64,000 bases of DNA, from positions 2,727,675-2,791,674 of the forward strand of contig NC_087078.1 of the NCBI RefSeq assembly GCF_026151205.1, in the 5' to 3' direction. Source of the stretch: Bolinopsis microptera (taxonomy: Eukaryota > Ctenophora > Tentaculata > Lobata > Bolinopsidae). Position 1 is the stretch's first letter. Each line of letters starts with the position of its first letter. Both the position numbers and the translations under genes were made by a program. Positions 937 to 58,000 of the stretch are shown in pieces. Under the pieces are notes generated by a model, which made no database searches, had not been told where the DNA came from, and saw only the letters and a list, made by a program, of their open reading frames with translations.

Positions 937-2166
937 ATTAAATATTATCTAAATAATAGATACCAGTATGTTAGTGTACTTGGTGAAGAATCAGAGCCTC
1001 TCCCAGTTAAACTAGGCGTACCTCAAGGATCCGTTTTGGGCCCCTTGCTTTTTCTTATCTATATAAATGACATCTATAGATGTAGTACATTAGGAAAATT
1101 TGTACTATTCGCAGATGACACAAACATCTTTGTAGCTGCTGAAACTAAGGAACAAGCATACAAAATAGCGAATGAAATTCTCGACTCTGTGTGCCAATAT
1201 ATGCGCCATAACCTACTGCACATTAATGTTAAAAAATCTTGTTACATGTACTTCTCGCCTACTAAACGTAAGACCATTGATAATACTGAAAATGACTTGA
1301 ATCTAGAAATTGATGGGATCCCGATCAAACAGGTTACTGAAACGAAATTTCTAGGTGTAATTATTGATGACAAACTGAGTTGGACACCTCATATCGAGAA
1401 ACTAACTAAGAAATTAAACAGCATATGTGGCCGCATTTATCGAATAAAAAACTCCCTCCCCAGCCAGCTGTACAAACAGATATACCACACTCTTATTGAA
1501 TCTCATCTAGGATACGGTATAACTGTATGGGGTGGTGTATCAATTAATAAGCTTTCACCACTATTCCTTGCACAGAAGAAATGTGTCCGAATCTTATTTG
1601 GGGACTCGGAAGCATTTAGCGACAAGTTTAAAACTTGTTCTCGTAGCAGGCCAATCCAGTGCAGTATAAACAAGAAAGGTCAAATATCCAATGAATCAAC
1701 TATACCTCACATTAAACCGTGTTCTATATGTATCAGCTTGAGGAAGACTGGTGATAAACAAGCAAGGCCACATCGCTGCCAAATACTTGGGGCAGAATTC
1801 CACTCTAGAGAATCAACAAAACCTATTTTCCAATCTAAGGAACTAATGACAGTACATAACATATATAGATACAGATGCATTACTGAAACAATGAAGATAG
1901 TGAAGAGTCATCAGCCCATATCCATGTATTCTCTCTTTAAGAAGTCTGAGCTCAGAGATGACAGATTTGTGACACCACACTCATCTCACAATTTCGCATA
2001 TAAAGGGGCAAATTTATGGAATAGGTTTCTTGAGCAGTCAAATGCACGTGGTAAAATAGGTTCACTAGGTTCAATTAAATCCCGATTGAAGCTTTCTATC
2101 ATGAAGGCTCAACACCAACCTGACAATATTAACTGGCAGGACTTAAACTTCAACACTTTCCTATGA
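937..2166 (+). mobile_element. 5'-truncated non-LTR retrotransposon (CR1/L2/Jockey-like reverse transcriptase fragment)
   Basis: The frame is open from about 937 (just after an in-frame TAA at 934) to the stop at 2164-2166. It starts inside the reverse transcriptase domain, so no genuine start codon exists. The visible motifs are LGVPQGSVLGPLLFLIYIND (RT block 4/5) and the catalytic FADDTN (about 1108-1125), followed by the thumb-like segment FLGVIIDDKLSW. The C-terminal region has YHTLIESHLGYGITVWGG and ends in the basic tail typical of CR1/L2/Jockey-type LINE ORF2 proteins. The endonuclease, the fingers of the RT and the first catalytic Asp are missing. This is a dead copy, 5'-truncated in the usual way for target-primed insertion. 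I see no poly(A) or clear target duplication; an unrelated inverted-repeat element begins 66 bases downstream. The exact clade is not certain. Confidence 0.85.
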
Positions 2167-19667: not shown

Positions 19668-20447
19668 TTACAGTAACAGCATTGTAGCAGCTCGCCCATC
19701 TTGATCAATAATCAGGTTCTCTTCGACTTTTTCCATGCCGGTAGAATCCCCAGTTTCAGCATCACGTGCACACATCATGCAGTTGCAAGATTGTATCTTC
19801 TCGATTGGTATCGTTCGTTTTATGGGGTTCTTGTTATCCACGAAGCAGTCGAATGTTTCGGTTTCTACCGTCTTCAGTTTTGGCAGACAACATTTGCATT
19901 CTGTCTCGATCTGAGGTGGAGGAAATGTTAGTATTCTGTTTTGCAATAATATATAATATATACAATTATATGTGCAGAAAACATTTACGAATCAGATGTT
20001 GCTAATTAATATGATGATGATGAATAAGGATATTAGTTAATTTTGCTAATAGCAAAACCTAAAATTGACTTAAATTAATTTTACCTTTCCGAAGATATCT
20101 CTCCTCTGCATCTTCTTGCATTTTCCCTTTATGTCCCAACAGAACTTGATTGCGATTTCGTTTGTCTGAAAATGAATTGAGTTATAATTAAGTTATTATC
20201 ATTCCTGATAATGAGTCCGAATAAGTTTTATTGCATGAATCATATTATGAAGATTCCTGATCAAAATAGCTAAAATAGGCACCAACTCTGGCTGAAAAAA
20301 ACTAGAACTTACCGATACACACAGAGTACGATCTTCGGGATCGTAATCGTCAGGGTCGACCACCACAGTATCGTTAACAACCCAAACCTTCATCTTTTCA
20401 ATAGGCTCTTTGACCTTAGATTCACAGGCGGGCTCGTACACAACCAT
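19668..20447 (-). CDS. C-terminal cystine-knot exons of the minus-strand mucin
   Basis: Exons 43-45 (20447-20313, 20165-20085, 19910-19668), residues 3505-3656. About ten cysteines follow the CTCK pattern of mucins and von Willebrand factor. The first two exons carry [22 protein letters not shown]; the last carries ETECKCCLP, then [11 protein letters not shown] and QSCNCMMC. In that family the ECxCC...C...SCxCxxC end is diagnostic, and the domain dimerises the protein through disulphides in the endoplasmic reticulum. A short tail of about 35 residues ending in MLLL follows; it is too short for a membrane anchor. All three exons join in phase 0. I regard the domain assignment as sound, although the spacing of the first half is looser than in vertebrate mucins. 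Confidence 0.85.
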
Positions 20448-23400
20448 CTGCAAGTTTTAGGGCGTTAGAGAATCTTAGCAAGGCATGTTTTTTCCCACTA
20501 TTTTAATTAATTAGTGACAGTCACAATAAAAACAAGAGGTATAACAGAAATGTGGGGGGGGGGGGGGGGGGGGGGAGGGGTATAACAGAAGAGTACTTAC
20601 TGGAGTGGTTTGTGTAGCGATACGATCGGTTACTGGCATTGTTGTAGTGATAATCTGGGTAGGAGTGGTCGCTGAAAAGTAGGGGGAGATTATCAAATAA
20701 TCCAGCTGAACTCTATTTCATCAAATCAATTGAGGTTCCGCAGAATATTCTAATCAGGTGCTAAAAATTGGTTTATAGTTTGACTGAAGTGTAACTTACA
20801 AACGATTGTCTTTTGACAGATTGACATCTCAGGGGCGTAATGGTATGGTTCAGTATCGTCATGAGCGTATTGCGGAGTGGATCCTTGGTCATCCTCAGCA
20901 TCGTCTATAAGCACAATACCGTAGTTGTCAACACCACCTTCCTCGATCCAGTCACGCGCCAATTCGTGGATTGGAATCTGGAGGTGATATTAGTCAGGTT
21001 TGGGCATTTAGTTTTTAAAACAGGGATTCAATATATTCGGTATTCAAAACTAAGGGAAAATAGTTAGAAACTTGATTGGTTCCAATATTTAGTTACATGG
21101 ATTGCCATGTAATATGAAATTCACTACATGTGTTTGAAATGAGTAACTTAGTTACTAGAAGTTACTTAGTAACTGTGTTAAACTGAGTAACTTACGGTCA
21201 CTTCAGTTCCTCCGAGTCGGCTCTTCTCGATTATTAGAGAACCGTAAGGCTTATCTTCGTCGAACTCGAGGTTCTCCCAAGTCACATCATCTTCAGTCCA
21301 TGGTGATGTTATCTAAAAAAAGGTTGGATTAATATCACTGTAATTTCTCAGGTTGATTATTTTCTAGGAACACTGACGAAGATTGGATCCTAATTTCGAC
21401 TGAAATAGAAAGCACTAAGTTTGACAGTCGCCCTGATTACCTTGTAAACGCTGACAGTTCTTTGGGTAGGAGAATCCTCGTTAGATGGTCCCAAGTAGTT
21501 CAAATGTACAAACGACTCATCGATCTGGTAAGTCTTGAACTCTAAAAGACAACAATATGTGATGAACGTGTCTTTTGAGATAATTTAGCGATTAAAACCA
21601 TCAAACATTTAGATCAAGTAGCAAGGACTAAAATTCCCAGCACACACTATAGTGTAGTATAAATCTAGCTTATAGACAGTTTGGGTTGTAAACTTCGCCC
21701 TATTCAACCTTACGAGCCGCAGAAAACACTTACTCTCAGAAAATTGCTCCAAGTCGAATTTGAGTACAGTTCTGTACTTTTTGCCATCGTTGTCCTTTCC
21801 GTGGGTTAGAGTTTCGTTGGTCTGGGTTAGAGTTTCGTCACCGTCCTTCACCAGTACGACGCTGGAGACTACATTGGTGACAACCTGAGTGAAAACATGG
21901 TTTTAAACATGGCTTACACATAAAGTGGTGAAAATAAAGCAATAAATTAATCAAGATCGAAATGTAACTGAACAGTTCATAGATTCTCTACATACCTTTC
22001 CGTAATCATCGTTACACTCCTTGATCTCCACCTTTTTGTAACAAACATCGATCCAAGGTAGGAAATCTTCCTCGACCTCAGTATCGTTGGTGAAGCTGTA
22101 ATAACGGACATCCTTGGCGTCCTCCCGCTCGTCAGAGCCGTCAGTGTAGTGACTGACAAGGGCCACGCCGTAGTAATCCTAAACAGAGACGATCAGATCT
22201 AGCAAATTCGTCATAATGGGTAACAGGGGTAATGGGTAACAAGTGAAATAAGAGTTAAATTGGTAACAGGAGTGAAATTGGTAATCTGACAATGCTACGT
22301 TGGACCAACCTTTAATAGCTAATAATGACTCACCTGATTCTTGTTCTTATTGAAGGGACTGATCCACTTTTGGATGGTTTCTGTGAAGTCTGTCCTTATC
22401 TTCTTGTTCCTGTTGATCTCCTTGGTGAGCTCGTTGAACTCTCCAGTGCTTTCCTGAAGTATACAAGATTAACTGCTAATAATACAACATCAAATCAGTT
22501 CAATTAACCAAAATCTCATATAATATCAATAATATGTGAAATTCAACTACACAGCATGGACTGCATAATTCTAGTTAATTAAATATTTTACTCAATATAC
22601 TAACATCGATGTTTTGTTCGGAAGTGAGCTGGCCCACATTAGTGGAGATCTCATCCCACGGTACAGCCACAGGATGAAGCTTCGTGATCTGGGACTTCCA
22701 GGTCTTGCCTTCAGATCCGTCCTTCACGGTCACGAAAATGTTTGACTCGTAGATCCAAATGTTCTGATGAGGGTGTTACTTTGAGATGTAATTGGGGTTA
22801 CTTCGAGGCAAACTAGAGTTGACAGTTGATAAAACGATTAGTTGCTGTAAAGTACAGTGCCCAGTACAGAAATAAACAGATATGAAATATTTAAACACGG
22901 AGTAAAAACGAAGAAATAATCAAACAAAATCAGAAATGGTACCTCTTCTTGTTGATTTTTAATAAGCTCTGACAGATCGAACTTGATGATAGACATCTTC
23001 AGTCCAGTATTGTGCTTTTTGCCGACCACCAACTCATCTGGATTGACATCTCCGTCATCGTCTCCTTCGGTGAAAACGATCGTCTTAGACTCCACGAGAG
23101 TTCCTCTGATCTCCTCTCTGACACCACCTTTGGAATAAATGATTATGGATAGGTTCACGATTCGGGTCTATTAAAGCATATTGATATATGGTTTGGTTCA
23201 TCATAAAACGTTAAAATCATAAAAAAAATAAAATAAAAAGTAAGCAAAATAATAAAATCTTACCTTGCGGAGCATCACACCGAGGGATTGGAGAAGAACT
23301 ACTAGAAGAACTGGAGCTTGATGGAGTTGTTGTGCTCGATGAGCTTGATGGCGTTGTTGTAGAAGATGAAGTTGTGCTTGATGAGCTTGATGGAGTAGTT

Positions 23401-26400
23401 GTAGAAGAGCTTGTGGTACTTGATGAACTTGATGGTGTTGTTGTTGAAGATGAAGTTGTGCTTGATGAGCTTGATGGTGTGGTTGTTGATGATGATGTTG
23501 TGCTTGATGAGCTTGATGGTGTTGTTGTGCTTGATGAGCTTGATGGTGTTGTTGTACTGGAGGAGCTTGATGGTGTTGTTGTTGATGATGATGTTGTGCT
23601 TGATGAACTTGATGGTGTCGTTGTTGAAGATGAAGTTGTGCTGGAAGAGCTTGATGGGGTTGTTGTACTCGAAGAGCTTGATGGTGTCGTTGTAGAAGAT
23701 GAAGTTGTGCTTGACGAACTTGATGGAGTTGTTGTTGATGATGAAGTAGTGCTTGAGGAGCTTGATGGAGTTGTTGTACTGGAGGAGCTTGATGGTGTAG
23801 TTGTGCTAGAAGAACTTGATGGAGTGGTTGTAGAAGATGAGGTTGTGCTTGAGGAACTTGATGGTGTGGTTGTTGATGATGATGTTGTGCTTGACGAGCT
23901 TGATGGTGTTGTTGTTGATGATGATGTTGTGCTTGACGAGCTTGATGGTGTTGTTGTACTGGAGGAGCTTGATGGTGTGGTTGTTGATGATGATGTTGTG
24001 CTTGATGAACTTGATGGAGTTGTTGTGGAAGAGCTTGTTGTTGAAGACGAACTTGATGGTGTAGTTGTTGAAGATGTTGACACTGAAGGTGTTGGTGTTC
24101 TTGAGGTTGTTGAGGACTGTGATGTAGTTGAAGTAGAACTTGTTGATGTTGTTGATGTGGTTGAAGTTTGAGAAGTGGTCGACTCTGTCGGAGTTGTGCT
24201 TGGAGATGATGTAGATGATGTTGATGTGGGTGTTGGTGTTTCATTTGGAGTAGATGTTATTGAAGAACTTGAAGTTGAAGAAGAACTTGATGGTGTTGTT
24301 GTTGACGAAGATGTAGTGCTTGAAGAGCTTGATGGAGTTGTTGTACTCGATGAGCTTGATGGTGTTGTTGTTGAAGATGATGTTGTGCTTGATGAGCTCG
24401 ATGGGGTAGTTGTACTCGAAGAGCTTGATGGGGTTGTTGTTGAAGATGAAGTTGTGCTTGATGAGCTTGATGGAGTAGTTGTTGACGATGAAGTTGTGCT
24501 TGACGAACTTGATGGAGTTGTTGTACTTGATGAGCTTGATGGAGTAGTTGTAGAAGATGAAGTTGTGCTTGATGAGCTTGATGGTGTTGTTGTGCTAGAA
24601 GAGCTTGATGGTGTTGTTGTTGAAGATGATGTTGTGCTTGAAGAACTTGATGGTGTTGTTGTTGATGACGTTGAGACTGAAGGTGTTGGTGTTCTTGAGG
24701 TTGTTGAAGACTGTGATGTAGTTGAAGTAGAACTTGATGATGTTGATGATGTGGTTGAAGTTTGAGAGGTAGTCGATTCTGTTGGAGTTGTACTAGGTGA
24801 GGTCGTGCTTGATGAGCTTGATGGGGTTGTTGTGCTTGATGAGCTTGATGGAGTAGTGGTTGAAGATGAAGTTGTACTTGATGAGCTTGATGGAGTTGTT
24901 GTGCTTGATGAGCTTGATGGGGTTGTTGTACTCGAAGAGCTTGATGGTGTAGTTGTAGAAGATGAAGTTGTACTTGATGAGCTCGATGGAGTTGTTGTTG
25001 AAGATGATGTTGTGCTTGATGAGCTCGATGGGGTAGTTGTACTTGAAGAGCTTGATGGTGTTGTTGTTGAAGATGAAGTTGTGCTTGATGAGCTTGATGG
25101 AGTAGTTGTTGACGATGAAGTTGTGCTTGACGAACTTGATGGAGTTGTTGTACTTGATGAGCTTGATGGAGTAGTTGTAGAAGATGAAGTTGTGCTTGAT
25201 GAGCTTGATGGTGTTGTTGTGCTAGAAGAGCTTGATGGTGTTGTTGTTGAAGATGATGTTGTGCTTGAAGAACTTGATGGAGTTGTTGTTGATGATGATG
25301 TTGTGCTTGAAGAGCTTGATGGTGTTGTTGTTGATGATGTTGAGACTGAGGGTGTTGGTGTTCTTGAGGTTGTTGAAGACTGTGATGTAGTTGAAGTAGA
25401 ACTTGTTGATGTTGATGATGTAGTTGATGTTTGAGAGGTAGTCGACTCTGTTGGAGTTGTACTAGGTGAGGTTGTGCTAGATGAACTTGATGGTGTTGTT
25501 GTTGAAGATGAAGTTGTGCTTGATGAGCTTGATGGAGTAGTTGTTGACGATGAAGTTGTGCTTGACGAACTTGATGGAGTTGTTGTACTTGATGAGCTTG
25601 ATGGAGTAGTTGTAGAAGATGAAGTTGTGCTTGATGAGCTTGATGGTGTTGTTGTGCTAGAAGAGCTTGATGGTGTTGTTGTTGAAGATGATGTTGTGCT
25701 TGAAGAACTTGATGGAGTTGTTGTTGATGATGATGTTGTGCTTGAAGAGCTTGATGGTGTTGTTGTTGATGATGTTGAGACTGAGGGTGTTGGTGTTCTT
25801 GAGGTTGTTGAAGACTGTGATGTAGTTGAAGTAGAACTTGTTGATGTTGATGATGTAGTTGATGTTTGAGAGGTAGTCGACTCTGTTGGAGTTGTACTAG
25901 GTGAGGTTGTGCTAGATGAACTTGATGGAGTAGTGGTTGAAGATGAAGTTGTACTTGAGGAGCTGGATGGTGTTGTTGTAGAGGAGCTTGTGGTACTTGA
26001 TGAGCTTGATGGAGTTGTTGTGCTTGATGAGCTTGATGGGGTTGTTGTACTCGAAGAGCTTGATGGTGTAGTTGTAGAAGATGAAGTTGTACTTGATGAG
26101 CTTGATGGAGTTGTTGTGCTTGATGAGCTTGATGGTGTTGTTGTTGAAGATGAAGTTGTGCTTGACGAGCTTGATGGTGTTGTTGTGCTAGATGAGCTGG
26201 ATGGTGTTGTTGTTGAAGATGAAGTTGTGCTTGACGAACTTGATGGAGTTGTTGTAGAAGATGATGTTGTGCTTGAAGAGCTTGATGGAGTTGTTGTTGA
26301 TGATGATGTTGTGCTTGAAGAGCTTGATGGAGTTGTTGTACTCGAAGAACTTGATGGTGTTGTTGTTGAAGATGAAGTTGTACTCGAAGAGCTTGAAGGA

Positions 26401-29400
26401 GTACTTGTTGACGATGTTGAGATTGAAGGAGTTGGTGTTCTTGTGGATGTCGAAGACTGTGATGTTGTTGAAGTAGAACTTGTTGATGTTGTTGAAGTGG
26501 TTGATGTTTGAGAAGTTGTTGATTCTGTTGGAGTTGTACTTGGAGATGATGTAGATGATGTTGATGTGGGTGTTGGTGTTTCATTTGGGGTAGATGTTAT
26601 TGAAGAGCTTGAAGTTGAAGAAGAACTTGATGGTGTTGTTGTAGATGATGAACTAGATGGAGTTGTTGTTGAAGATGAGGTTGTGCTTGATGAGCTGGAT
26701 GGAGTAGTAGTTGAAGACGATGTAGTACTAGACGAACTTGAAGTTGTTGTTGTGCTTGATGAACTAGATGGAGTTGTTGTTGAAGATGAGGTTGTGCTTG
26801 AAGAGCTTGATGGAGTTGTTGTCGAAGATGAAGTTGTGCTTGATGAGCTTGATGGAGTAGTTGTTGAGGATGATGTTGTGCTTGAAGAGCTTGATGGAGT
26901 TGTTGTACTCGAAGAGCTTGATGGTGTTGTTGTTGAGGAGGAAGTTGTGCTTGATGAGCTTGATGGGGTTGTTGTACTCGAAGAGCTTGATGGTGTCGTT
27001 TTTGAAGATGAGGTTGTGCTCGATGAGCTTGATGGAGTTGTTGTTGATGATGAGGTTGTGCTTGATGAGCTTGATGGAGTTGTTGTTGAGGATGAAGTTT
27101 CTCTTGATGAGCTTGATGGTGTTGTTGTGCTGGAGGAGCTTGATGGGGTCGTTGTTGAAGATGAAGTTGTGCTTGATGAGCTTGATGGAGTAGTTGTTGA
27201 AGATGATGTTGTGCTTGATGAGCTTGATGGAGTTGTTGTTGAGGATGAAGTTTCTCTTGATGAGCTTGATGGTGTTGTTGTGCTTGATGAGCTTGATGGA
27301 GTAGTTGTTGATGATGAGGTTGTGCTTGATGAGCTTGATGGAGTTGTTGTTGAGGATGAAGTTTCTCTTGATGAGCTTGATGGTGTTGTTGTGCTGGAGG
27401 AGCTTGATGGGGTCGTTGTTGAAGATGAAGTTGTGCTTGATGAGCTTGATGGAGTTGTTGTTGATGATGAGGTTGTGCTTGATGAGCTTGATGGGGTCGT
27501 TGTTGAAGATGAAGTTGTGCTTGATGAGCTTGATGGAGTAGTTGTTGAAGATGATGTTGTGCTTGATGAGCTTGATGGAGTTGTTGTTGAGGATGAAGTT
27601 TCTCTTGATGAGCTTGATGGTGTTGTTGTGCTGGAGGAGCTTGATGGGGTCGTTGTTGAAGATGAAGTTGTGCTTGATGAGCTTGATGGAGTAGTTGTTG
27701 AAGATGATGTTGTGCTTGATGAGCTTGATGGAGTTGTTGTTGAGGATGAAGTTTCTATTGATGAGCTTGATGGTGTTGTTGTGCTTGATGAGCTTGATGG
27801 AGTAGTTGTTGAAGATGAGGTTGTGCTTGATGAGCTTGATGGAGTTGTTGTTGAGGATGAAGTTTCTCTTGATGAGCTTGATGGTGTTGTTGTGCTGGAG
27901 GAGCTTGATGGGGTCGTTGTTGAAGATGAAGTTGTGCTTGATGAGCTTGATGGAGTTGTTGTTGATGATGAGGTTGTGCTTGATGAGCTTGATGGGGTCG
28001 TTGTTGAAGATGAAGTTGTGCTTGATGAGCTTGATGGAGTTGTTGTTGAAGATGAGGTTGTGCTTGATGAGCTTGATGGTGTTGTTGTGCTGGAGGAGCT
28101 TGATGGGGTCGTTGTTGAAGATGAAGTTGTGCTTGATGAGCTTGATGGAGTAGTTGTTGAAGATGAGGTTGTGCTTGATGAGCTTGATGGTGTTGTTGTA
28201 CTGGAAGATGATGTAGTGCTTGTTGAAATTGAAGGTGTTGGTGTTCTTGTCGTTGTTGATGACATTGATGTAGTTGAAGTAGAACTGGTTGATGTTGTTG
28301 AAGTGGTTGATGTTTGAGAAGTTGATGATTCTGTTGGAGTTGTACTTGGAGATGATGTAGATGATGTTGATGTGGGTGTTGTTGTGGAAGATACCGTTGT
28401 TGGAGTTGTCGTAGTTGATGTTGAGCTGGATATAGCTGGAAAAATGATATTGTTACTTTTTAGTAAGGGGGAACTTAGAAAGCAAATGTGACCGATTTTT
28501 ATTTTATCAATGATTGTAATAATGTACTTGATCTATTTAAGGAATAGCACTTACTTGAAGACGTGGTAAAGGATGTTGTGAAGGAGGAGGATGAGGGAGA
28601 AGTTGAGCTGGTTGTGGAAGTATGCGAGCTACCTGTTTAATTAGAGTTCATGTCAGACTATTGCCCAGGTTGGGGTTAAGAAGAAGTGTTACCGGTATAA
28701 ATTCAATTCAGGCGTTATAAATTTTTTATTTAAAGATGATTAAATTGCATGCGATTATAACATTAACTATTCGTGAGTGCTTACAATCCATTTCGACACA
28801 CTGTCCAGATTCGTTCTCAACAAGGCCCGCAGGACACGCGCACTGTTCAAAGCACTCGTTGGTTGTGAACGTCTTGCATGTCTTCACTCCACAAATGTCG
28901 TGACAGGCTGGTCCACACTCTACGTACTGCTTTGGCCATTCGCACATGACCTCTGAAGAATAATAACAATTGAATATTATGTATTGGTTGATGATAAGAA
29001 ACTTCCATGAAATTATTAAATCTCATTGTCACGATCAGTTCATAAAATGATTTCCCCAAAATAACAGAAAACTCACGGCACTCATCAGTCTTTACTCTCC
29101 AGTTGATAGTAATACCCCGAGAAGTACACTGTCTTACGTAAGTTTCGATAGCTTCACAGTAACACATGCAGTCACCACCGAGATCACAACCGCAAGCGTC
29201 AAACAGACAGTTCTCGTAGTATGGACCAGGGTTCACGATAGGATGGCAGGCTTCGAATATCTGGTCGTTTATCAGCCTGATTAGATACGGTTAGATTGAA
29301 GATTGCGTTTGAAAATATTTCAAATTGGTATAGGAAAACATTAATTGGGACAGTTAAGATACTTTTGTGAAACGATGGCTTTACGCTATAGGATGCTTTT

Positions 29401-32400
29401 TTTGGTGTTGATTAAGTTGATATTAACATTAAGTAAAAATACAGACACAATTATTATGACAAGCAGAATTGAATACTTTCCATTCAAAAAGATAAGCCAA
29501 CAAATTGAAAACAAATGAATAATAAAATCAGTGTGAGTACGTACCCACACATGGTCTCTGCAAAGGATCTCCGGAGTGGGTTCTTCTCGCATGGTGTTTG
29601 TTCGCTCTTTTCAGCATCAGCACACACCTCCGAAGTTTTCCAGGAGTTGGCAAACGGATACGCAGTTAGTTCTGTAAGTCCGCTCTGCAAAAATGATAAG
29701 GTTAACTTATTGAAATTAAATAACAATCAATAACAATTAATTCTAAAATATAACAATTCTCAAACGTATTCTAAACCCGCCTATAATTCGTTTGTGTAGA
29801 CAAAAACCCAGAGAAAATCAATAATTAGTCGAATGAAAGTACCCAGATTCCAGAAGAATCTTCTAACCTGTAACTTGTAATCATCCTTGGGGTTCTGGTT
29901 GTAGTCACCACAGAGACCCTGGAGCTGACCAGCCCAACCAGAACTTGCTCTCACGTACACCTGGGTTCCTCCGTTCCACAAGACTCGGAGTGATTTGTCT
30001 CCCTGGTCCCATCCGACCATGAGGAAGAAGCCGACCTTATCGATAACCACAGCTGGTGAAAGGGTAGTTTATTATCTTCAGTAATAATTTATAAATCAAG
30101 GCTTACGGTTTTAATTTAACCAAGGGTGCAATTAATGTTCTATTGAATGTTTCAGCTTTAAGCAAAAGTATGAAAAGCGTCGATAAACAGTAGTTTCTGA
30201 GTCAAAATAAAAAATGAAACTTCAAACTCGTGACTCACACATTTCCTTATCATCGAAAGGAATGCTCATGGCTTTGGCAGGTCCATCATTGAAAGTTCGG
30301 GTAATCTCCCGATCCTTCAGCATGGTGTAAGTGATGGTGTTTTCTCGGTTGGTTACACTGACGATGACACTCTTTGTACATGTTACTGGGTGAGATCCAC
30401 ACTGCTGGTTCTCTGTTACAATCTGAGTGGTGAAGTGTTAGGTGTTCAGTCAATCGCAAAAATCTTGAAATTAATGGTGAGAGATTATTTGCTACAATCT
30501 ATAAACCATTAAAAACTGAACATCAATAACAGGGATCTGATAAAATAGTAACCTTGTAAGAAAGTCCATCAACAGGTCTGACAGTCTGTGAGAGCACATA
30601 ACCACAAGATCCCTGGAACTCGAACATTTGTCCGTCAAAGGTCTTGTAATGGGGATCTCCGGAAGCGTGGCACTCTCCGGGGCAGGTATCGTCCGTACAT
30701 TCTATAACTCCTCCGTTACACGTGCACGTGTTGCATTCCTGGAGTGGAGCACATTATTTCCTGATCATTGCAATCAATATTGGATAAAGAGTAAACGACG
30801 TTTAATCAATCCACCTCGTTGACAGTTAATCATGTTCAAGTAAACAAATATTGTCAACTGTCTATTAATTGTGAAGGTATAATTAAGTCTCCAGTCACTC
30901 ACCCTCTTCCAAGACTGTCCGTCTGTGTAGTCGATACCATTGTGGGTGCAAACAGCAGCTCCGGTTAGCTCCCTGAGGCAGTCTAGATCCTTGGTGCATT
31001 CCATGCTTCCGTCGGTACACACACATCTTGTGCATTCACCTTCCAATACCTCACCCGGTTCCTGGATAATTGAACGGTTAGTTAATTGATATAATTACTG
31101 GTTAATTGATATAATTACTGGGTAATGAGTTTTAAGTGAAATAATTAAGTTCTCAGGGAGTTGTTATCTGATGGCATAAAGATGGCTGAGCCGAGTGGAG
31201 ATGAAATTCCAGTGGCTGACCATTGAGAACCCCTCTTATCTGGCTACCACAGAGATCAGATCACCCGACCAGTGACATAATTAGAAACTATGAACCTCGT
31301 TTGGTTACGTCAGTGATGCATATATTCAAAATGTAATGGCTTTGTTGTCCCTCTTTGTTCGAGAAGCTGAATCGATACTATGTGAACAATGATTGAACAA
31401 TACATATAATTCTATCGGCAACCGCTATTGTTTCTACCTATTCTAGTTACATAATAACAGATCAGAGGAGACTTCAGAGAAAGCAGTCTTGATATATTTG
31501 GGCAATTTGGAAATCTAGCTAGGCACACTTGGGGCACACTAGCTCCTAACGTGCTCAGCTAATGGACAAGCAATGATATAATAAATTCCTGAAATACCAG
31601 CGGTTGAAAATTTTAAAAACAACTTCCATAATAGACCGTACCCTCAGTCAGATACAACACCAAAAACATTATCAAGAAATGCTAACTGACTTGATAATGT
31701 TTTCGGTGTTGTATTCGACTTTTCAGATAAATTTCTCAAAGCTTAAACATTGTTTCATTCGTTAATACTACCTTCTTATTTGTCAATTGCTGGTCACAGT
31801 TTAACTGCAGTATAAGACGTCTTACCCCAAATATAATTTCATCGGCAGACAAATTGGGCAGTAAATAAATTGATCATATATGACACTTTTCAATCCATCT
31901 ATCGACCATGTTCCAATGGTTTCTACTTCTCTGGAAGTTCCTAGCTGTGCATAATTCGTATTTATTGGTAGTTAAATGTTTCATTGACGGGTTCCAAATG
32001 GTCCTGGCAGCCAAAAAACTTACGTATTTCTGGTCGTTGTAGACACAAGGACACGAGTCCTCAGGAATACAGACTCCATCAACAGTCGAGTTGTAGAGGG
32101 ATCCAGATGGGCAGTTACATCCCCTGAACAAGTAAACGTCATAATATTTTGTTTTATATTTAACGCAAACCTACATGTTATCCGTGTTCTTTGTATAGTC
32201 GTCAGATAGCCAACAGTGAATTCTAGAGACTTCAAAAAACAACAGTCAGTAAATCGTGATTTTACTTAAAACAACAGTCAGTAAACGCGAAATTTCACTA
32301 ACCGAACACATTTGTAATCACAGACGATCTTGTCCTGGTTGCTCTTATCCTCACAGGTCCTGACACAGGATGTGGCACAAGCTTGGTACTCCTCTCCGGC

Positions 32401-35400
32401 ATCACACTCAGGCTCTGTAGACAGGGGGGACGTTATATTTAGCTGTTAATACTGATGCTTATCTCATCAGGTTGAGATATTGAGAAGTTTGTTGATAACC
32501 AGAATGTTGTGTATGCAAAAAAATAGTAGTGGAGTGGAGTAATTTCACGGTTGTTTTTGTTAAAATAACAATTTAATGATAACACACATACATCCCCATG
32601 TATAACATAAAAGCACTCACGGCAGATGTTAGCATTATCCCTCCAGCTCAGATAAACTCCGTTTTGGAAGCAAGCTGTGTCGTACATATCAAGGGCTTCA
32701 CACTGACAATCCTCCTTGTCTCCAAGACATTTCAACATCGCTGTCTTACAGTTCTGGAGGAAAAATCGTTGGTTACAAAAATTAAACCTTTTTGATTCTT
32801 CTCGTATTATTTTACGGAATAGCATGGTTGCCATATATTTATCTGTATTATATTTTGTTAAATCTCGCACCACATCAGTGAAAGTACACAGTTTAAAGTC
32901 CATTAATTAAACAATTAATTGTTTATTGCTTACTTCGTAGTAACGTGATGGTACAACTGTGGTATGGCACAGTTTGAAGGACTCGTCTTGCATAATGTAA
33001 GCACACGCTCCCTCAGCCTGGCTTATCTGTGAAACTGAGTACGATTTTACGGGGATCTCAATAGTCTCACATTCAGGTTCTTGTCTCCAACTGGAAAATT
33101 GTAAAACTGTTAGGAAAACAGTCGATGGTTTTAGTACGTCATGTGAAAACTGGTAACCTAATTACAAAAGCAAGCACTATTTCAGTTGAATCAAGAACTG
33201 AACAATTCCAACCACCGAACAAACAGGGATCAGATCATAAACTGACCGAATTCCCTCACGAAGTTTCAAATTATTGAAATATTACCTGTTGATGAATGTT
33301 CCCTCTGTAGTGGAGAGAATACTTGTTGAAGGAGCGAAGTCGTTGTTGGGTCGTCCGTCAAAGTCACCACACAGACCACACAGGTTGTCAGCGAGCTGCT
33401 GAGGAGCGTAGACGCGGATCTCACTCTTTGACCAGTCCACCTGGAGGGCAGTGATGGTTAATTATTATTTAATTATTTAAAGACACATTGGCTTTTATTT
33501 TTTACCGCACTCCATTTTATGTCTTGATCTCTCACTTTCTAGGATCTGTTTCTTTCTTGATTGATTATGTCACTGTACTTACCTTTATTATACCTACATG
33601 TATTGTATGGTTTCTGCCTCTATTTAGTTTAGTGTGGTTTACAATAAAAGATGTTTTAATTTTGTCTTTGCCTTAAGATGAGTTATACTTTAGTTCACTT
33701 TTACACATTTGCTCACATCACTCACAGTCAGCCGCTCTGACATGGTTAACCACCTTCCTTGTGTTGTTGGTTAATCATATGAGCGGGATATAAATACCTC
33801 ATTTCATTTCATTTTATTCATAATAAGTAAATTAACTAACGCTTGTGATCGATTATTGTATTCACGCTTCGTAAAATTTCGGCAAAAACGATTAATCGAT
33901 TTGTGTGATAAGTCACGAATAAATCATGTACAAACCTTAAGCCCGAGAGCAGATTCGTGTTTGATCGTCAACTGAACGTTGGAACTTGAAACCCTTCGCA
34001 CTTGGAAGTCGAATGTGGTCCAGGGAAGCTTGATGAATTCTGAAGATTTGGAATAGTTTTAGAGTTTTGTAAAGTGATGGAGTATCTACAGATCAAATAT
34101 AAACTTGAAATGATCACTTATTGAACTTCTGGAAACTTAAGTTATAAAAGCATTCTCGATCTTACCTTCGAACAATCCGTTCTGGTTAACTCGGATGGCA
34201 TTGGAGTTATCAATTGTTATTTTCGTTGTCATGAAGTTTATCTCAACTTCACGGGCCTCGCAGCCTTCGTCGTCACCACAAGTGGCTAGATTCCTGAATG
34301 AATCAAGGGTTAATGAATGCGGAGCAATCAATTGTATTGTGTGCACTGTAGAAAAATTTAAAACACAAAATTTGCCGCCAGAATCCAGGATGATCGTTAT
34401 GTCGAACACATGGTTCCAGGTTCAAGACGCGCACATAAAGTGCGCGTATGCATGTTTATGACGATTGGCGTTCGCGACTGCAGCTCTTGGAGAATTGCAC
34501 ACAAGGCAGGAGTGAGCGAGTGCAGAGGGTCATTATCATGAATATGGAATATAAAAGTGCTCCAAACATTCTCTTCGCATTCTGACTAACCTTCTTGAGA
34601 AAATCTTGAAGAGACTTCCAGTAGATTTAGCGAGGGGACCATCAACACAGTTCTGTGTCATAAGGTATGTGCAGCTCCCGAGGAAGTTGAAATCCTTCTC
34701 GTCAAATGATTTCCAGAAACCCTGACCTCCGACGGAGCAGACTCCACCACATGGCTTGGACTGGCACTTCCATACACCCCATTCACAAGTACTGAAATAA
34801 AGTGGAGAAGTTGAAACACTCAACGTTATTATCTAAAAATAATAAACAGTTTTCAGTTCTGCTGAACACGAGCTATCAAATATGGTATATCTAACAACTT
34901 AGTAGTAGTAGAACAATCACAGCACCATTCGACATTCGAGTAAAAAAACAGTTAAACGTCAATAAAGGACACCTCCCGCCATTTTCAAATTCCATTAATA
35001 AACTATTGTACGTGTAGTTGTAAGCGAGTATGTGTTATCTGATTAGCCAATAGCACATTGTTGTAGATGGTCTGGTTTACAATGTCAAGTCTTAAAATCG
35101 AGTATTGCCCTTTACGTTTTACAGACTACAACAAAATACATATTATATGAAAATTTTATCAGGTAGAGGGCAGGTTGTTTATCACATACATTTTGAATAA
35201 TGCAATACACTGCGAACACAAATAATATCAAGCAATTCCCCAAACTCAGTACATAAGGCAGTGACGACTCTTAAATTCTTTTGTTTTCTAAAACAACTTA
35301 CCATTTCTGGCACTCAGTTGATCGGCCCTCTCCAGGAGCGTAGATGTTGTCGTTATACACACAAGAACACTGATCCTTCTCCACACACTGACCATCAGCG

Positions 35401-38400
35401 TCAAGTACCTACAAAATATGTTACTTTAAACATCAAGTACCTACAAAATATGTTACTTTAAACAAGTACCTACAAAATATGTTACTTTAAACATTTAATT
35501 GCATTTAAACTCGAAATTTAAGCCTTAAATCTATGTAAATATGTAATATGTATAACTTAAACATCATTGGTCCTGGGGGGAAATGTGTAGTGTTCCCGTT
35601 TGCCCAAGAATCATTACTTGAACAATGCTACTAATAAATAATATTCCGATCCGGATATTCCTTTAAACATACATTGACAGTAATACTTGAACACTGGACA
35701 GTAATAATTTACTGCAACTTGAAACATTCGAGTGAATGTTAAGTTAACCTTGTCAGAAGGACAGAAGCAGCCCTCAACACAGGGAAGAGTACAGGCTTTA
35801 GTGGTGAAGTAGTTGCTGCAAGTGGACACGCAAGCTGTACCACAGGAGTTGTACTCCATACCAATGGGACAAGTTTCAGCTGAAATTAACAACAGTGTTA
35901 ATTATACAAGTTGTGTCTGATCGTACACATTCAAATGATTCTTAATGGGTACAGTAAACTGAAGCCAAGAACATTATTGGATTATAGTCATAAATTAATA
36001 TGGTCCAAGTTATTCAGTTATTGCAATAGTATAAGTCACTTACGATAGTCAGTACAGATGGAGCTAGGCTTCCAGTCAAGGTCCAAAGCGTACTCCTCTT
36101 TGCAGTTCATGAAGTAAGCTGAGAGTGATGAGCATGTGCATCGACTAAGGTTGTCTTCAGAACAAGAGCAAACATCAGCAATACACATGTCGTAGTAACC
36201 GTGGTTATCTTCACATTGGTCAGAGTATTGCTGAAATTAGAAATCATTAACAATTATGCAATGATGGAGCCAACAAACATTTTATGAACTATTTAACTGA
36301 ACTTCAAGTCACATACTTTTAGTTACAATATTTTACGATTTATACGATGTTAACTTAGCAAGCGTTTGGTAATAAACGATTAAAGGTTAGTCAGGAAACC
36401 TTGATAAGTTCGCAATCATTCTGAGCTTGTTTCTCTCTATCTCCACTGCAAGTTACTGCTGAGTAAGCTTCAGAGTCACAGGTAGCCTGTAAGAAATTCT
36501 CTGTCAGATAATAAACAAAAAATCGAACACTAACTTTTAAATTTGACAATTTTTCAGCATAAAATATTTATTAAGGCTGAAAAGTGACATGTCAGGCACA
36601 GACTAAGGATGGGGCTAATGCTGAGATGAGGATTTATAAAGAGGGTTAGAGTTAATCAGAATTAAGAGATCATGAAATTAAGGTTCAGGAGTTACTGTTA
36701 TTTGTTTCTCTGACCATCAAACTTGATCCAAAAACAGGATAAATCAGCATCAGCGAAATTAAACTTACATCTGTCTGCCAAGACTTGGCGAATGCGTCGC
36801 CATCATTGAGCTGTGCTCCGAGTTTACTGAGCATGTCGTTAGTTCCGTCTCCGTCAAAGTCACCACAGAGACCTGAAACAATTACACTGTAAAAGACAAA
36901 TGATTGCACCGTTTAGTTCATTTCACCAGGATTGTAGTTATTGGTATTAACGAGAAAGTGGTTAAAGCCTCTCTTAATACGTATCAGCGGTTAACCGATC
37001 AGCTCGCAGTTTCGAGCAATCTAACCGGAGTGCTGTCACGTGTCACAAAACTACACCACTACCCTGCTGTTAGACACAGCAGTGAGATTGTAAACATGAT
37101 AAAGCCACATATATCACCGCCGTAATGCAAGGCACCTAATTCAAAGGCAAATTCAAACTCAAGTAATGTTGATTGACCATGGTCCATGAGTCAAATAGAG
37201 TCATGAATCGCCGAGAGGCTGCGGAGTGAAAATTTTAAATATCGAAATGCGATCGAAACGCTCGATTCAGCGACCGAAAACTCTTGCTCATGTCAACAAC
37301 AACATTTACAAAACATACGCGCGGCGCTTATACAGCCAATATGGAAGTCAAGTAATTTTTCTTCACTGTTTTAAATTTATTTAAAAATAATATGTTTAAC
37401 AATCAAAAATAATTTCAAAGCTAAAAAATTATGAATTTATAATTTACAATTTATATTTAAAAGTTTGTTTCTAATAGGTTACGCCGCGCAGCTAGCGGCT
37501 TCATAAAAAACCCCCTCGCAATATTTTATACTTATACACAATGATTGTCGCGTTGGATTATGAAAATCATATTATTTTCCGAATCCGGTTTGCCGCCAAG
37601 TTTCGTTCTTATCTGTTCTGTTATCTTATTTGTTCGGGTTATGTTAACCCGTCTTCTTTTTAGTATCGATAGCTTTACTTACTAACTACAGAACCTTACC
37701 TGCATATTAGTTAACCATTTTTACAGTTAATTGCCAGGAGGTTTATCAAACATATTCACATTATTGTGATTGTAAATAAAAGATTGTAAATAAAAGATTT
37801 ATTAGTTTAAGTAATTTTAACGATTTAGTGTACAAAGCTCATGATAGACGTTTATGGAGAAGCTATGGGTGAGTCGAGACTACTCGGCCACTCGATTTTA
37901 TGACTTATTTTCTATTATCTTGTGCTTGCATTATATATAGTTGATTAATAATATTCACATTGCATATTATTACGGTTTCATCTTTTCATCGTCCTTTATT
38001 TGAATTTCAGTACTTGGTAGGTACCGGGCTCCTTAAAAACCAATGACGGATTTATGGAAACTGTACAAGCTTGAAGCTGATTCCTGATTCTATTAATCAC
38101 ATGATCACTATGCTACTACACTGCATTAAACACTAAAGAGCTTGATGTAGCGTGTGTGAGCGTGTGTAAGCTTTGCCATGAGTCTATTGTCTGATCGATT
38201 TCAACCTCATCAAATCAATAGAGTCTCGGCAAGTACGGTATAGCGGTTCACCGCTTTGAGCTTTAAGCTTTCAGTACAGAATATGTAGTATGTACTCTCA
38301 TAATATTTGACTCTATTCAAAACCCACTGGATCAGTAATGATAGATGTATTTGTAATCTTACTCCATATTAAACACACACACACATTCTGCACACAAAGA

Positions 38401-52070: not shown

Positions 52071-55000
52071 GTAAGTGCTAATAAACAGACAAACAGACAA
52101 CTTTACAGACAAACCCAAGCACACAGACTTGGGAATACATACAAACTCACAACCACTTACTTGGAAAATAACCTGAAATTCACATGACAGACACCCACAT
52201 TAACATAGAGAGACTATTTGAAATTTGATGTCAAACACTTTTCAAATACATTGCACCTAGCTCTCACACAGATTTCAGTACACCACCATCTCTAAGCACA
52301 CTCATGCTCTTCACGGTGAACACATACACACAGATTTCTAGACGAACACATTCTCCCGTATTTCCGTGCGCATTGAATCGAATAAAGATTGGTTTAAGAC
52401 ACTGAATGAGCAGCACATGCTCAGCAGCTGATTGAGTGTGACTAATGAGTTGTGAAAGATTCTGACTAACAGTCTGACTAAAGATTCAACACGACATCCA
52501 TGTCGACTTTTCATTCTCCATAGTTAAGCTTGTTGTGAAATTTGACCTACAGTAGATTAAGTAACTGGGTGATTTCATCACGTGATACTATAAGCTTGGT
52601 ATGAAATTGGACCCACTGAGAATTGGGCGAATTGGTTATTATTTACCCTAACAATTAACATGTTGCTCCTCCAGTGAATGCAAGGACGCAAGCTGGCAGT
52701 GCGATGCTATCAACTGCGATGCCCAGTGTTCCGTAGTCGGAAATGGTCACTACAACAGTTTTGACAAGCGAGCATTCACCTACCCAGATATTGACTGTGG
52801 TCACACCCTCGCCAGGGAGTGCTCCACAGAACAGAAGTGGAAAGTTACTGGGTCAGTACTTTCCACACAATGTTTTTTATTAGCTAATAGTTACAGTGAT
52901 AGATCTCAGACCAGGCCATACCTCTAGGTTCTAGGACTCTTCTGTCTGTTACAAGGTACAAACTTTAAAATGGAAGTTTAAAATGCTTATCTAAGCACTG
53001 TACCATGTAACATTTTCTTTTTAGTAAACATCTCACATAAAACCAAATTTCCACCCCAGATACACCAAAGCTGACTCCGCTGAACTGAAGGCTATCACCC
53101 TGACAATGGTCGGATTCGAGGTGTCAGTAGACGCTGATCTCCAGGTTTTCCTGGACAGAGAAGCAGTCTCTCTCCCCAAGACCCACGCTGGACTCACCAT
53201 CAAGATGGCTGGTTTCTTTGTTGTCATGACTGACAGTACTTTCAGCATCAGGTTCAACGGTGCCGGACAGTTCTACCTTGACGTAAGTCGTGGCAAAATA
53301 TTTCATTATATTCGATGTTCCTCATTCTAGATTTGAACCAAAATGTTTACAGAAAGAAATTTAGCTACGAAAAATTTTAGAACCATAGTTTCTGGGACTT
53401 TTTCAAATCTTTCTTTCTCCCAGGTATCAAGCGAGTACTCTAAGGGTCTGTGTGGTATGTGTGGTGACTACAACGACGATCCCGGCAACGACTTCCAGGA
53501 CACCTTCGGAGGTCTCAAGGACACAGTTGAAGCGTTCGGTAAGACTTGGAGACAAGGAAACTGCCCGGACAAGGTACAGTTCTCAGACAACTGTGGCAAC
53601 AACCCAGCCATGCTCAAACTTGCCCAGGACGCCTGTTCTCCAATCAAGAACAGCCAGGAGTGTGTTGATGATGGCGACCAGTTCTTCAACCTTTGTGTAG
53701 CAGACTTCTGTGACGACCCAACTACAACCAACACTCCTTGCAACACCCTGTCGGCTTTCTTCCACGAGTGTGCCGCCACCCAGGCTATCTTCATTGATGA
53801 CTGGAAGACAGGAAGTGACTGCGAGGCTGTACCTGAAAAGTGTGCTGCTGGTAAGAGATTACTATCTTGATTAATTAAGATATTCTTATCTTAATTCGGA
53901 GTTTAGTTACTAAAGATGTGTCTGATAAATCGCCTATTTCCAGTTTATCTATAATTTAATTAGGTTTCGTTATCTAACTCTTATTCCAGGTTTCCAGTAC
54001 AGCACCTGTGCTAGTGCCTGTCAGCTGACATGTAGCAACTACATCATGACGTCAGAAACCTGCGGGCTACCTTGTGTAGAAGGTTGCTTCTGTCCCAGTG
54101 GCAAGGTGTACGACGCTGCCACAGAAACCTGTGTCGAGGCTCAGGTATGTACGCTCTACCATAATAACCAAGACACTGGAAAGTGGAAATTTACAATTGA
54201 TTTATTACTAGTTATCTCTTGTTGCAGAAGCTTTTAGCTCAATCCATGCCACTGCGAGGAATCTGTGTTGAGAGTTCCACTAATATTACCTTTCTCAGCA
54301 ATGTTCCTGTGAGTATGGTGGCCAGTACTACAACGCTGGAGACGCCCTCTCCAAGGACTGCGAGAGCTGGTCAGTAACACTCTCTGTCACGTGTTTTGCA
54401 GCAGTTGTATATTTTGTCACGTGGCCTGTTTGTTTATTCACGTGATTTGATTATTTGGTCAGGTGGTAGTTTATCGTTTTGAAACTTTACACCTCTAACA
54501 ACAATCAACTGTTTGTTCGATTTGTTGGTGATTTTAAAGGTTGTAGCTGATGCTTCACCTCATTAAAGTTTTATTATTACAGTATTATCTGACTCAACAC
54601 AAAACACGCAAAATAACTTTGCCAAGGTTCCGGCAATAAATCGAAGAAAAGTTGTCTAAATTAAGAAAAGCACACCGATTGACAACGCGCAATAACTTCT
54701 AATAATAGTTATACTGTATAAAGTTTGACCCTGCCCCTCCAACAGCACCTGTGCCGACGGAAAGTGGGAATGCTCCCAGAAGGAAGACTGTACTGACGTC
54801 TGTTACGCTAATGGTTTCGGAAACATGTGGACCTTTGACGACACCGAGTACAACTTCTACGGAGCTTGTCAGTACACAATGGTAAGTTTGATCCAAGATG
54901 AAAACTATCCTCAGTCCAACTAGCATGTTTATTTCAGATGTCTTTACCAAGTGATTCTAGTAAGTATACTCAGGTTCCCACTATAACATGATACTTCCTA

Positions 55001-58000
55001 CAGGTTGAGAACTGTCCATCAAACGACCCCACATCACCTGCTGCTGGCAGCAAGGTCAAGGTCTCCTCATCTCGATCTCTCACTGGCTGCACTGAAGATG
55101 CCTTCTGTTACCGTAAAGTCATAGTATGTACCCGTTATTAATACAAATTTTTGAATGTGTAACTTTTTATCTGGGTTTAGAGTCGTTAGAATACCACAGC
55201 GCACCTAACAATAACCATCATGAATCATGATCCCATGTGGGAAGCGGTGAGAGTAGCTGGTTATAAAACTCAATAAACAACCTACAACTACAGGTAAGAG
55301 TCATGGACTGGACAATCGAATCAATTGATGACAACATGGTCAAGATCAGCCATCCAACCTTCCGAACCGGAGTTGGAAACATGGCTCTGCCTTACATGTC
55401 CGATACATTCGATGTCCTGAGATACTCAAGCATGTAAGAAAAAAATCATATTGATCTTGCCGAAATTATTTCCTTATACCCAGGATTCCCAGAAATGGGG
55501 GTTCGCTGAACGTCGACTTATACCAGAACAGCTAATAGGTAGAATGTATCCAGATTATTAATATTACGAGCCAAACGTACTAGCATGGCATCGGCCGTGC
55601 ACATCAGAATCTAGCCGCTATAAACTTCCACTAACCCGCAATCTGTGCAGGATAATCCGACTGAATGTGAAGATAACAGGATACTCAGGACTGAGTGTGA
55701 TCTGGGATAACGAGCAACTTGTTCAGATCATCGCACCAGGAGCTCTCAAGAACGCATTGTGCGGTCTTTGCGGTACTTTCAACGACAGAGCTGCTGATGA
55801 TTTCGTGCCCAAGAACAGCAAAGTGTACGAGGATGATTCCAACATCTTCGCACTCTCATGGCAGGTAGGATCACTAAGACTATCTTTCAAAGAAGCGAAA
55901 CTTTGAATTATCCTAGCAGAGCTCTCCTGAAAACCAGTGATTATCTTCCTCAATCCCACAATTATTATTAAATTTGGCAGTATAACCACTTTCTAACATG
56001 GTCACCTTGTCAGGAAGACAAAGGAACATGTGACGACAGTGACAACACTCTGCCCATCAACCAGTCACCTTGTGACCGTAACCCAATCGGAATGGTCCTT
56101 GCCGAGGAGAACTGCAACGTCCTGAAAACAAGTCCCCACTTCACCAAGTGCCACTCTGCTGTGGATGTTGGACCCTACTACTCCAAGTGTGTCCAGGACA
56201 TGTGTCACTGTCCCGGTACCCCTAATCCTAACCCAGAGGTGTGCATGTGTGAAGCTCTTGCTAACTACGCCAGACAGTGTGCTCTCAAGAGTGTTTACAT
56301 TGACTGGAGGACACCCAACCTTTGCCGTAAGTAGAACTGTTGTTTTAAGCGGTTTTGGAAGCTTTTATTAAAATAAATGCTTTGAAGGTTAAGAACAACA
56401 TTTTATAATCGAACAAGCTTTTGAAGAGTTAAACACAGTCTTGATGATCCCAAGTTAGCACTTAAAGTTTCCAATCTTCTGAATGTTACCCTGGTATAAC
56501 CTCAAACTAACCCTCTTTCTAACCTCAAACTAACCCTCTTTTTCCTCCCCAGCTGCCGACTGCTCAGCTGGACAATCCTACGCTGCTTGCGGTAATGCCT
56601 GTATCCACACCTGTGCTGATCTGTCTTCAGACATTGACTGCACCAGAGACTGTGTCGAAGGCTGCAGTTGCCCTGATGGCCAGATCCTTGATAAGGTATG
56701 TTTTACCTTATTGTGTGAATTTTATCGAAAAGTTTCTATAAAGTTTTTACCATAGAGTTTCGAATTTGAGTATACATTTTCCCGTTACGACATCAAATGA
56801 CACATTTATTTAACATTGAGACGGGTTCCGTGCGGGTGTAGATGTTGCAAAAATAATGGTTAAACTTAATAAGTATTGATCTCATAGTTAAGTAGTTCCA
56901 GAGAATTAAATCATGTGACATGGGCGTTTTAGTTACGTAATTTGCAACTTTCACAAATATTATCATATACAATACAGCAATTAGCAATAATATGAAAGAT
57001 GAAAACAACATCATGAAGCATTAGAATATATATCCCCATTTAAAGGTCCTTTAAACACGCTTATATAATCCCGTTCATAAACCCTGGTTCCCTCAGACCG
57101 ACGGAGAGTGTATCCCAGTGGAGCAATGTTCCTGTCACGATGATAAGGGAGTTGAGTACCAGCCCGGCGACATTATCCCCGACGACTGCAACAACTGTAC
57201 CTGTACCAACGGTGTCTTCGTCTGCACTGAAGAAACTTGCCGTGAGTTAATTTTGATATTCTTATTTTGTCTGTTTTGTGGGAATTTCTTTGCTAACCTC
57301 TCATCAGGCACTGAATTTATCAGTTTGTGCCCCTTTAAAGCTGTAAAGTTTGTGCCAATTTTTCGATTGCAAGTTTTCCTTCAGCTGGAGTTGACGTAAT
57401 GTGTGAGTTCTACGACTACCAGTACACGCAAGGGCAGTACATCATGAACGAGTGCAACAGATGTACATGTACCTCCAACGGCTGGAAGTGTGAAGATAAC
57501 GACTGTCCAGGTATGCGATTTGATATAATTAAATAGCTTGAGCATGTAAAATAAGTGCAGGTTGAATATGTTTGGGTTTCAGTTTGTAGGTACACTCTGG
57601 ATCAAAATTAAGGCCCGGTCAGGGCTCATGGTATTGGTACAAAAACACCCTCCCTTTGTTATCTTAGAACGAAAGCTCGCTACACGTTGCGTGTAGCGAG
57701 CTGTATACACATTAACCACTGTGCCCGCCCTGTATAGCACTGTGTAAGTGCCGTTTCTCAGAGAGTGTTTCATCATCACTCTCGTAGGGGCGCTATGTTT
57801 GCCCTCTTAGAGTCACGGCTGTATACACGGAAGGAGAGGGAGAGGGAGAGCTGGAAACTTTGCTCCAGGCTAATTATCAACTCTCTAATAAGAAAGCTTA
57901 ATTTATGCGGTACATTGTATTATGTGTCTCCAATTTGATTTTTGGAGGTTTTGGATAACATTATACTAACTCAAATAAACTAAGAACTATAAGAATGAGA

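Follow-up and report, generated by a model that had tools for sequence, protein, structure and literature searches.

What fills the place of VWD4 and VWC at the end of a ctenophore gel-forming mucin? The question is raised by a stretch of 64,000 nucleotides from Bolinopsis microptera (NCBI RefSeq assembly GCF_026151205.1, contig NC_087078.1, positions 2,727,675 to 2,791,674 of the forward strand; hereafter the window), the minus strand of which carries a mucin gene with two tandem modules lying between a Ser/Thr/Pro-rich (PTS) domain and a Cys-rich C-terminus. The C-terminus of MUC2 is described as VWCN-VWD4-VWC-CK and that of MUC6 as lacking VWD4 and VWC (PMC10082768). Our explanation, to which, taken whole, we give a probability of roughly 0.53, is that the modules are paired DNRLRE sandwiches that stand in place of VWD4/VWC and act in glycan binding at the mucin end. 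That both modules are sandwiches of the DNRLRE/CBM96 type appears, from their sequences, close to certain.

The 3' part of the gene was assembled from 12 exon pieces (the end of the PTS domain, eight module exons, a linker and two C-terminal exons; Table 1), which were joined by eye at GT-AG borders using the sequence and its reading frames. All 11 introns are GT-AG and of compatible phase, giving one uninterrupted reading frame, 555 codons and a stop, in which module 1 takes up 216 residues and module 2 takes up 182. Their sum, 398, compares with 399 residues (3083-3481) in an earlier note on this DNA, whose claim of a tandem pair holds, its limits coinciding with the exon borders at 23127 (start of E2) and 20601 (end of E10). 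The motifs described there were found in part: KFDL, a W-helix (IQKWI and ARDWI) and YGxxL (DYYGVAL and DNYGIVL) occur in both modules, but PWxExxVTW is complete in module 2 only, module 1 having PWDE without VTW, and YYS is present in module 1 only.

Upstream of the PTS open reading frame (ORF) are the VWD-C8-TIL assemblies that characterise a gel-forming mucin. VWD matches exceed the Pfam cut-off at 34539-34832 and 30526-30753, C8 matches do so in three frames (36039-36236, 32442-32906 and 28850-29290) and TIL matches in two (35617-35901 and 28729-29022); a VWC-like frame at 30777-31094, also upstream of the PTS, scores 20.9 bits, below the cut-off of 27.6. Within the 555-residue tail there is no VWD or VWC match in Pfam at E <= 10, and thus none between the PTS and the knot. 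The modules lie, as had been proposed, where vertebrate mucins have VWD4/VWC, and a reading of the modules as VWD4/VWC was rejected for want of such matches.

What, then, are the modules? Two family profiles are relevant here, NCBIfam NF033679 (DNRLRE, cut-off 34 bits) and Pfam PF24517 (CBM96, gathering cut-off 26 bits). Module 2 passes both, matching NF033679 over almost its full length (67.7 bits, E 1.2e-18, profile positions 16-163 of 164) and CBM96 in part (31.5 bits alone and 35.2 in the spliced tail, profile positions 25-108 of 164); module 1 has no Pfam CBM96 match. In a phmmer search of PDB with module 2 alone, the top two entries were 8wab (DNRLRE, E 0.0086) and 7vbo (an alginate carbohydrate-binding module, E 0.089). 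The same two are best (7vbo at E 1.7e-5, 8wab at E 0.0026) when PDB is searched with a profile of eight mucin modules, all from the B. microptera genome and with no bacterial sequence among them, the only other match at E <= 10 being unrelated (1.2). Aligned with bacterial DNRLRE in hhalign, the mucin modules give a probability of 98 (E 1.7e-13, 152 columns). The bacterial DNRLRE profile, built from 21 of 24 extracted bacterial segments, scores 63.8 on module 2 and 24.8 on module 1, and because the best of 100 shuffles reaches 16.1 and 20.4, respectively, the likeness is beyond chance. These profile searches bear out the DNRLRE/CBM96 assignment that had been suggested: the membership of module 2 is firm, and module 1 is a divergent sister.

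In common with NF033679 and PF24517 (7vbo and 8wab), module 2 has sequence matching nearly the full profile, together with FDL, WxE, W-helix and N-x-G motifs. The mucin modules differ from their bacterial counterparts in being paired within an intron-rich animal mucin gene and in having, near the module end, a single Cys column that is invariant in all eight aligned modules; the last 16 residues of the bacterial segments contain Cys in 0/24 cases. Bacterial genome contigs held no close relative of module 2, and plasmids gave one weak tblastn match (E 0.1), so that searches of this sensitivity show no sign of a recent transfer.

The predicted design is a recurrent one, with three mucin loci having one or more DNRLRE pairs between the PTS and a Cys-rich C-terminus; as the genome searches were run exon by exon, this number is a lower bound. 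The 398 module residues gave 25 matches: eight in the window gene, eight at C7:2806913-2810881, three at C7:11664246-11665760 and six weak ones (E 2.0-4.6), which involve one query stretch and long open frames on several contigs and are taken as chance. The second locus is a mucin gene next to that of the window, in which PTS frames are followed, beyond the window, by three DNRLRE pairs (A, B and C) and a knot-like domain with 11 Cys. The third, at 11.66 Mb on the same chromosome as the other two, has PTS frames, one pair (T1/T2) and exons with C-x-CC...C and C-x-C-x-x-C recognised by eye. The CBM96 profile matched nothing in the genome, and NF033679 matched a single exon, below cut-off, in the neighbouring mucin. 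When the second modules were scored as spliced models against NF033679, T2 (49.7 bits) and C2 (47.7 bits in a first model, 52.3 in a corrected one) passed and A2 (26.0 bits) failed. The first C2 model, which included 23 residues of a dispersed repeat, was used in the module alignments and profiles, in the Pfam scan of the modules, in the genome search with the C pair, in hhalign and in the ligand-column counts described below; the corrected model was used for the 52.3-bit score and the charge counts only.

Relationships among the copies can be traced in several ways. Identity to the first module of the window (W1) is 37% for A1, 39% for T1 and 21% for C1. The intron that follows the FDL strand has phase 0 in W1, A1 and T1 and phase 1 in W2, A2, C2 and T2, which argues for common descent of these seven modules; C1 is an exception, its first intron being in phase 2 and lying further along. 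Pairs A and B are near-identical: over 1230 coding bases they differ at 17 nucleotides, with 5 synonymous and 12 non-synonymous differences (proportions of differing sites pS 0.019 and pN 0.012), which is uninformative on purifying selection. Searched against the genome, the T pair matched its own locus and the window gene, and the C pair its own locus together with 71 weak matches, all in one short stretch. That stretch (C7:2815246-2815314, before exon C5 of the neighbouring gene) is the dispersed repeat, its 71 weak matches being spread across many contigs.

How might a mucin with such an end work? The knot would join two mucin chains tail to tail, and the paired sandwiches would form a compact, mostly acidic stalk with the knot on one side and the O-glycosylated rod on the other. 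The sandwiches of the stalk would bind glycans, tethering the mucus to the glycans of mucins or of the matrix or to the surfaces of prey or microbes, and the conserved Cys near each module end may lock the pair covalently as a braced unit. The ligands known for DNRLRE/CBM96 domains are alginate (7vbo; PMC9971899) and, from the title of the PDB entry, chondroitin sulfate (8wab). The modules are most likely glycan-binding or a spacer, replacing VWD4/VWC; that the pair does bind glycans is, as far as sequence can tell, a tentative proposal that falls a little short of even odds.

A number of findings weigh against our explanation. Module 1 scores 32.3 bits with NF033679 (E 9.1e-8, profile positions 18-141 of 164), just below the cut-off, so that its relatedness rests on the profile comparisons, and A1, C1 and T1 have no NF033679 match at E <= 10 (the B copies being unscanned), so that their membership rests on alignment and position. 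The C-terminal domain of the window gene has two Cys fewer than the 11 of its neighbour, and dimerisation of this mucin tail to tail by the usual bonds is therefore not assured. Finally, Lys27 and Arg36 of TM6-N4 are reported to be key to alginate recognition (PMC9971899), and when the TM6-N4 residue numbers are mapped onto the module alignment through Phe42 and Trp84, both are out of place: the Lys27 column is Gly in all eight mucin modules, and the Arg36 column lacks Arg in all eight (it is Lys in five), an Arg being found one position beyond it in 4/4 second modules. These residues lend no support to binding of the alginate type.

The displaced residues would suit sandwiches that have lost sugar binding and are purely structural, forming a spacer or stalk in place of VWC that governs how far apart the knot and the glycosylated rod lie and how flexibly they are linked. 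Several other features favour such a role: seven of the eight modules are strongly acidic (net charge -13 to -27, T1 being -2), the copy number varies between one pair and three as might be expected of a spacer, the invariant Cys suggests covalent bracing and the VWC tail of MUC2 is described as an extended stalk (PMC10082768). The solved alginate-binding CBM96, however, is itself acidic (net charge -12 over the 174 residues printed), and the charge of the modules does not therefore decide between binding and spacing. Lys27 and Arg36, moreover, are rare in bacteria too (kept in 2/21 and 6/21 bacterial rows), so that their loss leaves room for another ligand; the missing counterpart of Asp82, from the calcium site, says little, being absent from 8/8 mucin modules but also from 20/21 bacterial rows. 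A purely structural role is thus a serious possibility, albeit one that we consider on balance doubtful. Much less credible is the idea that E2-E10 are part of another gene, or have been mis-joined, and that the mucin ends elsewhere. Joining was done by eye, and in the neighbouring gene an exon later needed correction, but the phases fit at 11/11 junctions of the window gene and the order of PTS, pair or pairs and Cys-rich C-terminus is repeated at two further loci, making an error of this kind most improbable.

Glycan-binding DNRLRE sandwiches remain our preferred explanation, but their position directly before a knot-like domain brings to mind the proproteins of the TGF-beta family, and the earlier note had described the pair as propeptide-like. 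In a published Dali search with the CBM96 structure (PMC9971899), the matches include BMP9 (4YCG) and pro-activin A (5HLY), at Z 10.7 and 9.9, respectively; 4YCG is labelled there as the growth factor domain, but the part that matches in both entries is presumably the prodomain. When PDB was searched with the bacteria-only DNRLRE profile, 7vbo and 8wab were followed by GDF8 (E 0.023, 0.023 and 0.12) and the TGF-beta2 proprotein (E 0.025), which occupy ranks 3-6 of 177,635 sequences and match around the W-helix, the next match being unrelated (1.2). None of these is significant alone, and it is therefore the rank order and not any single E-value that carries the argument for likeness of fold. 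With a mixed profile, TGF-beta chains again came after the DNRLRE chains (E 0.027-0.26); with the mucin-only profile, no TGF-beta chain was found in PDB at E <= 10. A Foldseek search with a structure model of bacterial DNRLRE put 8wab and 7vbo in ranks 1-3 and latent TGF-beta1 in ranks 4-7 (E 2.0e-3 to 3.8e-3), unrelated chains beginning at E 4.3e-3; the model is a weak, single-sequence one (predicted local distance difference test, pLDDT, 57.4; predicted template modelling score, pTM, 0.60). VIA-align of this model returned many unrelated sandwiches at Z 7.4-8.7, with 7vbo at 7.8, and TGF-beta was absent among the best 50 rows. The likeness to TGF-beta propeptides seems real, but as a property of the DNRLRE fold as a whole.

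Does the likeness extend to TGF-beta proteins of the ctenophore itself? Ligands of the family are present in B. microptera, PF00019 having 15 matches in the genome, 14 of them above cut-off and some duplicated. Near-identical ligand copies are found at L016, L017, L018 and L022 (on C3) and at L019 and L020 (on C12), with L022 and L020 appearing to be frame-split. Seven fragments from six TGF-beta loci, near-duplicate loci being excluded, were compared with 20 iGluR windows as controls. With the bacterial profile, the fragments L021 (20.0) and L023 (21.6) scored above all 20 controls (<= 14.4) and the other five were at control level (11.0-14.7); with the mucin profile only L021 stood out, the other five prodomain fragments scoring 9.9-11.6 against controls of up to 15.6. 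The score of L021, a fragment chosen by eye, was reached by 0/150 shuffles with either profile, but hhalign probabilities were 3-4% for L021 and 11% for L023. A phmmer search of PDB with the L021 prodomain found no TGF-beta chain. Six ctenophore TGF-beta pieces matched neither PF00688 nor CBM96 in Pfam, and five pieces searched against NCBIfam matched nothing. PF00688 itself found nothing in the B. microptera genome at E <= 1, but control genomes were equally silent, making this search uninformative on absence.

Membership of the TGF-beta propeptide family is another matter, and here the propeptide reading fails. A PF00688 match is absent at E <= 10 from the eight mucin modules scanned, and the modules were rejected as TGF-beta propeptides. 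No furin-type R-x-x-R is present in the two linkers examined (window and neighbour), and PF00019 has no match in either C-terminal domain behind the modules. What follows the modules in the window gene is instead a CTCK-like domain with 9 Cys in the arrangement C...C...C-x-CC...C...C-x-C-x2-C. No Pfam knot profile matches this domain or that of the neighbour. In PDB, the window domain matches nothing at E <= 10 except two NBL1 chains (weak, with E 0.27 and 0.43), NBL1 being a CTCK protein, and the only match to the 11-Cys domain of the neighbour is VWF (weak, E 0.18).

Could the pair nonetheless act as a TGF-beta prodomain does, covering or chaperoning the adjacent knot until secretion and then freeing the knot or a ligand? 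The published Dali scores, the third to sixth places of GDF8 and the TGF-beta2 proprotein with the bacterial profile, the Foldseek ranks, the two of seven ctenophore fragments that exceed all controls and the position directly before a knot-like domain are all in its favour. Set against these are the missing PF00688 and PF00019 matches, the lack of an R-x-x-R site in the two linkers, the silence of the mucin-only profile, the low hhalign probabilities, the five fragments at about control level and the fact that L021 alone stands out with the mucin profile; we regard such a role as very unlikely. An evolutionary connection is also conceivable, in which TGF-beta proproteins arose from a secreted, once glycan-binding DNRLRE-type sandwich placed before a cystine knot, an arrangement that ctenophore mucins would keep or repeat. 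This we consider a long shot.

Like MUC2, MUC5AC and MUC5B, the window mucin has VWD, C8 and TIL pieces in its N-terminal part, a long PTS and a cystine-knot-like C-terminus, but between PTS and knot it has the DNRLRE pair instead of VWD4/VWC. In MUC6 these domains are missing too, with no substitute mentioned in the portion of PMC10082768 available to us. TGF-beta proproteins are alike in their DNRLRE/CBM96 fold likeness and in the knot-like domain directly after it; the mucin differs from them in its tandem pair, its CTCK-like knot and its mucin context, and in having neither a propeptide match nor, in the two linkers, a furin-type site.

Table 1. Features of the mucin locus (positions are those of the window)
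Feature	Position	Strand	Basis
Exon E2, module 1 start, KFDL	22943..23127	-	spliced model; NF033679 match on module 1
Exon E3, module 1, PWDE	22605..22763	-	spliced model
Exon E4, module 1, W-helix IQKWI	22334..22453	-	spliced model
Exon E5, module 1 end, DYYGVAL, RYYSF, conserved Cys	21996..22178	-	spliced model; module alignment for Cys
Exon E6, module 2 start, KFDL	21734..21884	-	spliced model; NF033679 and CBM96 matches on module 2
Exon E7, module 2	21441..21541	-	spliced model
Exon E8, module 2, PWTEDDVTW	21196..21312	-	spliced model
Exon E9, module 2 end, ARDWI helix, DNYGIVL, conserved Cys	20800..20977	-	spliced model; module alignment for Cys
Exon E10, short Thr/Pro-rich linker	20601..20671	-	spliced model; no R-x-x-R
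Exon E11, CTCK-like C-terminus, first half	20313..20447	-	spliced model
Exon E12, CTCK-like C-terminus, second half (CKCC ... CNCMMC) and stop	19668..19910	-	spliced model; weak NBL1 matches
PTS (mucin) domain, Ser/Thr/Pro repeats	ORF 23264..28532, PTS exon end 23264	-	ORF limits, tandem repeats; exon 5' end unfixed
VWD/C8/TIL pieces, N-terminal mucin assemblies of window gene	28729..36236	-	Pfam matches in separate frames, unjoined exons
Neighbouring divergent mucin, VWD/C8 then PTS	53337..63999	+	DNRLRE pairs and CTCK-like domain beyond window, C7:2806913-2817290

The two mucin genes of the window seem to lie head to head across 44000-53000, the minus-strand gene ending at 19668 and the VWD of the plus-strand gene being reached by 53337. 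Both have a PTS repeat of like kind, and the two genes, with neither 5' end fixed, may share a promoter region. Mucin-like genes of ctenophore tentacles and colloblasts, among them ML14246a and ML14247a, have MUC2 and MUC5B as best UniProt matches (PMC6278862, which in the portion consulted gives no description of their C-termini); these two have consecutive names and, by the names only, may be orthologues of the head-to-head pair. The PTS of the third mucin (L012, C7:11657190-11663400, extending to L012:6400) has dozens of units spaced at 111 bases, with identical translations in one frame, and is far more regular than the array of equal period in the window gene (67% matches). Elsewhere in the window, a 12-base unit forms a tandem array at 43604-43843 (20 copies, 97% matches), and there are reverse-transcriptase ORFs of retroelements at 7717-9588 (+), 937-2163 (+) and 14115-16952 (-), the last with RNase H.

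A gel-forming mucin is to be expected in a ctenophore, but the design of its C-terminus seems new: a literature search, covering titles and the openings of abstracts and few subscription papers, found no description of DNRLRE domains in an animal mucin. The portions of the papers that we consulted place the DNRLRE family in bacteria and archaea only, and here it is found at the end of animal mucins. Ctenophores are regarded as the sister group of all other animals (PMC11797021), and gel-forming mucins in their lineage can end differently from those of vertebrates. The DNRLRE pair is a candidate for glycan binding in ctenophore mucus or adhesive. Where a DNRLRE sandwich adjoins a knot-like domain in an animal, the origin of the TGF-beta prodomain becomes approachable by sequence, beyond fold alone. 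Should the evolutionary connection prove true, the DNRLRE pair with its CTCK would be a structural cousin of the prodomain with its growth factor, and the design of these mucins may bear on the origin of the TGF-beta family of hormones.

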